Shown here: piece by piece, positions 9,912 to 11,194 of the stretch
Layout: every line of letters starts with the position of its first letter
How positions within the stretch are numbered: position 1 is the stretch's first letter
Assembly (NCBI GenBank): GCA_902805565.1
Contig: CADCTP010000083.1
Coordinates: 1 to 44,423 of the forward strand
DNA: 44,423 bases
From: an uncultured Mycobacteriales bacterium
GTDB taxonomy: Bacteria > Actinomycetota > Actinomycetes > Mycobacteriales > CADCTP01
Direction of reading: 5' to 3'
Program-made: the position numbers and the translations under genes
Notes under the pieces: generated by a model
Database searches by the model: none
Seen by the model: only the letters and a program-made list of their open reading frames with translations
Told to the model about the DNA's origin: nothing

Positions 9912-9945
9912 CCGCACCGGAGTCGAAAGTCCCGACCCGACAGGG
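9912..9945 (-). promoter_or_regulatory. DevR-box-like element (copy 1), upstream of the DoxX-like gene
   Basis: Minus-strand core GGTCGGGACTTTCGACTCCGG; 30/34 nt identical to 11161-11194. Confidence 0.65.
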
Positions 9946-10133
9946 CCACCGGTCACCGATCGGCGGGGGCGGAGGACCCCGCGGCCGGCACGGCGGCCGG
10001 TTCGGCGTCCGGTCCGGGGCCGGTCCGGCGGCCGGGTCCGGGCAGCACGACGGGCCCGGCCCCGTCGTCGGGGCCGGGCCGGGTCAGGTCGGGTCAGGTC
10101 GGTGGAGGCGTCCCGGGAGGCGTCCTGGGAGGC

Positions 10134-11132
10134 TCAGTCCTCGACGACGGTGAGGACCTCGGACAGCGGGCGACGGCCGGTCGCCGGGGCCGGGCCGCCG
10201 GCCGGGTGGCCGACCCGGAGCACCATCTGCGGGTGGTCGGCCCAGTTCATCAGGGTCCGGAACCGCTCCCGGACCGCCGGCAGGTCGACCGCCTGGGTCA
10301 GCGCCGAGCTGGCCAGGCCGAGCCGCTGCGCCTCCACCGACACCCGCGCGTACGCCTCCCCCGCCGCGACCCGGGCCGCCGCGTCGTCGCCGGTGCTGAA
10401 CAGGACCAGGTAGAGCGGCTGCTCGTCGACCAGCTCGACCAGCGGCTGCCCGCCGGTGATCCCGGCCTCGAAGTCCCGCACCGGCACCTCGGTGTGCCGC
10501 GGCCCGCCGGCCGGCGCGTGCGGCACCGCCTCGGCCGGGATCCCGTCCGGGGCCATCGCGTCGGCGGGGCGGGTCCACCGCGCCAGCTCCGCCCGGTACG
10601 CCGGGTCCGCCGTCTCGACCCGGTCTGCCCACGAGGTCACCACGGCGAGGTCCAGCCGCTCCTCCGCCCGCCGGACCGCGTACGCGTACACGCCGGGCCC
10701 GACGGCGGCGGCGAGCAGCACGTCGACGAGCCCCTCGGGCACCGGCTCCGGGCGGAACGGCCGCCGGTCGGTCTGCCGCCGCTCGGCGGCCCGGGCCCGC
10801 TCGACCGTCTCCGCCGGCACCGGCACCCGGCGGGTCGGCCGGATCCGGCCGACCAGGTCGCCCTCGACCGTACGGTCCACGGCGGACTCCCAGCCGGCGG
10901 CGGCGAGCCCGAGCCGGGCCAGCTCCAGCGCCGCCCCGCAGGACAGCAGCATCGACCGGCCGTCCGGGTCCAGCGCCGGCAGCTGCCGGGACCGGTCCGC
11001 GTACAGCTCCAGCACCCCGGCGCGGAACACCCACCGCCACGGCTGCGTGTTGTGCACCGACGGGGCCCGCACGCCGAACGCCACCGCCTGCTCGATCTCC
11101 GACCGCGTCGGCACCTGGGTCATCGCATCCAT
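10134..11132 (-). CDS. Acg-type nitroreductase-family protein
   Basis: [14 protein letters not shown] near N-terminus, ~330 aa, [18 protein letters not shown]-terminal motif, as in Acg/Rv2032-type proteins. Confidence 0.85.
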
Positions 11133-11160
11133 GCCCTGACGGTAGGAGCCGGGCCGCCGG

Positions 11161-11194
11161 CCGCACCGGGGTCGAAGGTCCCGACCCGGCGGGG
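11161..11194 (-). promoter_or_regulatory. DevR-box-like element (copy 2), upstream of the Acg-type gene
   Basis: Minus-strand core GGTCGGGACCTTCGACCCCGG; 30/34 nt identical to 9912-9945, all differences A/G. Confidence 0.65.

Follow-up and report, generated by a model that had tools for sequence, protein, structure and literature searches.

Likely promoter-proximal DevR boxes upstream of the acg-type and DoxX-like genes in a compact devR/devS locus of an uncultured Mycobacteriales bacterium

Results

Genes of the devR/devS locus

The window analyzed here is the whole 44,423-nt stretch of contig CADCTP010000083.1 (assembly GCA_902805565.1), from an uncultured Mycobacteriales bacterium. It carries, on the plus strand, a devR-type NarL/LuxR response regulator gene (8600-9265, 221 aa; Response_reg and GerE domains), whose product combines a NarL-type receiver with a LuxR HTH and keeps the DosR contact residues. 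Among solved structures, M. tuberculosis DevR is its best match (3c3w; residues 1-215, E = 1.4e-88), and its closest paralogue in its own genome is 49% identical. The recognition helix is identical to that of M. tuberculosis DevR, including the equivalents of K179, K182 and N183, which we take to be the DNA contacts of DosR (1zlk structure).

The second plus-strand gene is a devS/dosT-type sensor kinase (11321-13021), with domain matches in the order GAF-GAF-HisKA_3-HATPase. Its GAF-A is most similar to that of DosT (2vzw, E = 5.2e-57), and the kinase keeps both the proximal haem His (HPPM) and the distal Tyr (GNLY), 22 residues apart as in DosS; the corresponding residues are His 149/147 and Tyr 171/169 in DosS/DosT (PMC4082495). 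A Gly occupies the position of DosS E87, as it does in DosT, and on this ground we predict that the kinase senses hypoxia by binding O2 directly and is not a redox sensor.

Two minus-strand genes lie between them. The acg-type FMN oxidoreductase gene (10134-11132, 332 aa) encodes a protein that scores 289.6 bits against NF047509 (Acg family), above the curated cut-off of 199, and that matches the Acg crystal structure 2ymv (E = 3.7e-29). The other gene (9308-9856, 182 aa), starting at ATG 9856 with an AGGAGG ribosome-binding site, encodes a predicted membrane protein that reaches 17.6 bits against PF07681, below the gathering cut-off of 23.6. Homologues are 44-63% identical, and 8 of 10 aligned members of its family match DoxX at E ≤ 0.01 (best 1.4e-5); judged from these profile matches, we call the product DoxX-like only. 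The genome contains one such regulator, one such kinase, one Acg gene and one DoxX-like gene. Frames for a SpoIIE/PP2C-type phosphatase, GAF proteins and an anti-sigma-like ATPase adjoin the locus at 14199-20220, and their translations suggest a stress-signalling neighbourhood.

Two near-identical 34-nt elements upstream of the minus-strand genes

Each of the two minus-strand genes is preceded by a 34-nt element on the same strand, at 9912-9945 in the doxX-like promoter and at 11161-11194 in the acg promoter. Recomparison confirmed what a preliminary description of this DNA had reported, namely that they match at 30 of 34 positions and differ solely by A/G exchanges, of which there are four as read on the plus strand. 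When 200-bp stretches drawn at random from the window were compared in 1487 pairs, their best match over 34 nt averaged 22.3 positions and never exceeded 28. Both elements are intergenic and lack codon periodicity. The acg element lies 29-62 nt upstream of the likely start (ATG 11132) and the doxX-like element 56-89 nt upstream of its own (ATG 9856), values that replace the 40-75 nt previously given for both.

The elements share a 21-nt core, GGTCGGGACYTTCGACYCCGG, of which they are the sole matches in the window at up to three mismatches (shuffled mean 0.05). Across the fragmented genome (4,641,038 bases in 460 contigs), exact copies of the core occur at the two elements only, which argues against a dispersed repeat; the next-best copy, with two mismatches, falls within a murI-like coding frame on another contig.

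A motif learned from other actinomycetes matches both elements

To learn a motif de novo, expectation-maximisation was applied to the sequences upstream of 115 genes of the Acg and DoxX-like kinds in other actinomycetes, a training set from which the window and the same-genus genome were left out. The result, nGGGmCnwwnGkCCCn, is the DevR/OsdR box, with a log-likelihood of 190 vs 27 for shuffled input. Motifs of period three that came out of the first runs were coding-sequence artefacts and were set aside.

Scanning the window with this matrix ranks 11212-11227 highest (14.1 bits), followed by 29269-29284 (13.6 bits), 11168-11183 (13.5 bits), a match at 24836 that falls in coding sequence (12.5 bits), and 9919-9934 (10.9 bits). 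The motif thus matches both elements, at 13.5 bits in the acg promoter and 10.9 bits in the doxX-like promoter. Three positions reach at least 13.4 bits in the 44 kb, and two of these lie in the acg promoter within 60 bp of each other; because a third-order Markov null expects 0.2 such positions, the acg boxes are strong by themselves. The same null expects 2.6 positions of at least 10.9 bits, so that the doxX-like box draws its support from its position, its near-identity to the acg box and the relatives described below. The palindromic core GGGMCNWWNGKCCC is present in both promoters, at 13.5 and 14.1 bits at acg and, with an imperfect second half, at 10.9 bits at the doxX-like gene.

The match at 29269-29284, AGGGTCGTCCGTCCCG, also lacks codon periodicity. 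The short gap that holds it separates a PPK2 polyphosphate kinase gene from a small PhnB/VOC-like protein, whose reading frame starts at about 29313; the match may be either a further regulon member or a chance occurrence.

Arrays of boxes in the acg and doxX-like promoters

In the acg promoter, the proximal DevR box within the 34-mer, CGGGACCTTCGACCCC (11168-11183, minus strand), overlaps the expected -35 region. A distal box that the preliminary description had overlooked, AGGGTCCTCGGGCCCT (11212-11227, minus strand), lies 44 bp further upstream, which also puts it about 95 nt ahead of the divergent kinase gene. A weak DevR-like box of 4.6 bits stands between them (11191-11206, minus strand); its distance is 23 bp to the proximal box and 21 bp to the distal box. 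A candidate -10, TACCGT (11139-11144, minus strand), is found 23 nt downstream of the proximal box. Since this TANNNT hexamer follows the proximal box and ends 6 nt before ATG 11132, we predict a leaderless acg transcript with the box over the -35 region; the acg start is thus probably leaderless, and the proximal box would lie 36-51 nt before it.

The doxX-like promoter is built on a similar plan with weaker sites. Its DevR box, CGGGACTTTCGACTCC (9919-9934, minus strand, no codon periodicity), has one weak half (CTCC) and is imperfect, and its companions on the same strand are weak only, at 9942-9957 (5.7 bits, 23 bp from the first) and 9965-9980 (6.4 bits, 46 bp from the first), the latter aligning with the strong distal acg box. 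This promoter shows no convincing -10. The location of a proximal box near -35 with more boxes nearby is therefore clear for acg, while the -10 is uncertain for the doxX-like gene.

Such spacing recurs in the promoter set as a whole, in which 35 box pairs lie 19-24 bp apart, mostly 22 or 23, vs 0-1 in shuffles; the weak middle boxes of the arrays are suggestive only. The idea of a multi-dimer site, put forward earlier for the 34-mer, holds as regards the arrangement and fails as regards the place, since the extra dimers are predicted at distances of about 22-23 and 44-46 bp, beyond the 34-mer itself.

Conservation in relatives

A genome of the same genus carries an acg orthologue (71% identical) whose promoter contains boxes of 10.9, 6.8 and 16.2 bits at spacings of 22 and 20. 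The counterparts of the proximal and distal acg boxes read CGGGACCTTCGGCACC and AGGGCCGTACGTCCTT, respectively, and CGGGTCGGGAC followed by TTCG and CCGG is common to the acg, doxX-like and same-genus acg promoters. The -10 equivalent there, TAGCGT, begins 22 nt after the proximal box and ends 6 nt before the ATG. Relatives as a group showed no common -10 position following the proximal box, so that the leaderless -10 rests on the window and this one same-genus genome.

A box of at least 12 bits occurs within about 200 nt upstream of 37 of the 99 Acg relatives and of 5 of the 16 DoxX-like relatives, compared with 1.7% of random stretches; these counts are somewhat favourable to the motif, as the relatives belong to its training set, of which the DoxX-like genes form only a small part. 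The DoxX-like membrane protein appears to be a recurrent box-bearing gene and, from its upstream sequences, a candidate overlooked member of the response. A search of mostly non-subscription literature turned up no paper that lists DoxX among the targets of DevR.

On contig 77 of the same-genus genome, we also observed a fuller island with two Acg genes, a universal stress protein, a flavodoxin-like gene, a kinase and a regulator. The island (locus L139; positions 9427, 9460, 13080, 13122, 16710 and 17630) is studded with many DevR boxes, among them a near-perfect one, AGGGACCAAGGTCCCT (19.6 bits), upstream of a membrane protein gene.

Box matches elsewhere in the genome

Genome-wide, matches to box-variant patterns are not enriched over reversed-pattern controls in this GC-rich genome. 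Most motif matches, and nearly all of the strong ones, fall in coding frames, as for example within a lantibiotic-dehydratase-like gene (contig C354). Upstream of the response regulator gene itself nothing scores above 0.2 bits, and the shared upstream region of a divergent pair of universal stress protein genes (contig C124) likewise lacks a box.

Elsewhere in the genome, an intergenic DevR-like box, TTGGTCCTAGGTCCCG, lies on contig 146 at about 2857 (locus L195, 1500-1515), between an SDR-type dehydrogenase gene and a divergent gene. This small contig also carries a second GAF kinase and a LuxR-type regulator.

Discussion

Proposed role of the elements

We consider it very likely, on sequence grounds, that the two 34-mers contain promoter-proximal DevR (DosR) boxes that serve the cooperative activation of the acg and DoxX-like genes by DevR~P. 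The earlier reading of the elements as DevR boxes thereby gains support from an independently learned motif, from the conservation of the acg promoter, from the DevR- and DosT-like neighbours and from near-identical predicted OsdR sites. The observations in hand are the sequence match, the tandem spacing, the conserved acg promoter and the identity of regulator and sensor, and from them we infer binding, phosphorylation, signal and activation as follows. The GAF-type, DosT-like haem kinase would phosphorylate the neighbouring DevR when O2 falls or when NO or CO binds. Dimers of DevR~P would then occupy the proximal box overlapping the -35 region, together with those that lie some 22 and 44 bp farther upstream and face the same side of the helix, and the cooperative filling of these boxes would recruit RNA polymerase and turn on both genes. 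The divergent kinase gene may come under control of the distal acg box as well.

The near-identity of the two 34-mers could alternatively reflect a recent copy of one promoter segment, by duplication or gene conversion, such that descent and not DevR constraint alone would account for it. The identity does extend past the 16-bp box, by TGCGG at one end and CGGG at the opposite one, and the doxX-like and acg promoters align with a score of 60, above the 49 obtained for the acg promoter against its same-genus orthologue. However, once the 34-mer is masked, the residual similarity (24) is not significantly above the null (20.9, sd 3.4), and the same-genus acg promoter keeps the same core, which places the site under constraint there. 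We hold such a copy to be rather unlikely, and descent and DevR function are in any case compatible with each other. The masked comparison also leaves unsupported a duplicated promoter cassette larger than the 34-mer, which the preliminary description had suggested.

That the elements serve another of the dozens of NarL/LuxR-type regulators of this genome is improbable. The response regulator has 69 genomic matches, several of them full-length at 40-49% identity, but none comes near the adjacent regulator, with its identical recognition helix, in similarity to DosR; the motif equals the published DevR/OsdR box, and the adjoining kinase is DosT-like. We give scarcely any credence to the elements being a dispersed repeat, or alike by chance, in a genome this GC-rich: motif matches are common in the coding sequence of this genome, whereas the two exact copies are the only ones, intergenic and without codon periodicity, stand upstream of genes that are typical of the regulon or recurrently box-bearing, and mark a site conserved in the same-genus relative.

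Beyond the reading of the 34-mers as DevR boxes, we propose a wider picture, tentatively and with somewhat more doubt than conviction: that both promoters carry three DevR boxes in a helically phased array of 21-23 bp, that the DoxX-like gene is a conserved, unreported member of the DevR regulon in actinomycetes, and that the regulon has perhaps shrunk here to little more than the devR-devS locus. Multi-box DevR arrays are already known from Mycobacterium and Streptomyces; the additions made here are the phasing of the array and the repeated occurrence of boxes at DoxX-like genes. The DevR/DosR hypoxia-dormancy circuit, best known from tuberculosis, would thus extend to another actinomycete lineage, in a compact one-locus version with one regulator, one DosT-like sensor, one Acg oxidoreductase and one DoxX-like protein. 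The recurrence of phased multi-box promoters across many genera would make it simple to compare between lineages how cooperative DevR activation is constructed.

Comparison with known systems

In M. tuberculosis, the start-proximal DevR box overlaps -35, the boxes are closely packed and binding is cooperative (PMC3029386). The present locus shares with that system at least two closely packed boxes, the proximal one over -35, an Acg-family target, and DevR with DosS/DosT partners; its boxes also share the palindromic core GGGAC...G.CCC of M. tuberculosis DosR boxes, such as those of the tgs1-Rv3131 intergenic region (Rv3131 being of the Acg family). In contrast, the boxes here are GC-richer and less symmetrical in their second half, agreeing with TTSGGGACTWWAGTCCCSAA at 14 of 20 positions, and a DoxX-like gene is a putative target, a role for which we found no report.

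The Streptomyces coelicolor regulator OsdR (SCO0204) has the 16-nt consensus AGGGCCGATCGGCCCT (PMC5069765). The palindrome of 16 nt is common to both systems, and a nitroreductase gene (SCO0215) is among the predicted OsdR targets. The predicted OsdR site at SCO5979, CGGGACCTTCGGCCCT, differs from the proximal acg box at two positions (PMC5069765). The predicted Streptomyces OsdR regulon is a large one of 27 units in which usp and nitrate genes are well represented, whereas the boxes described here stand at the acg-type and DoxX-like genes, and none was seen at devR or at the divergent usp pair.
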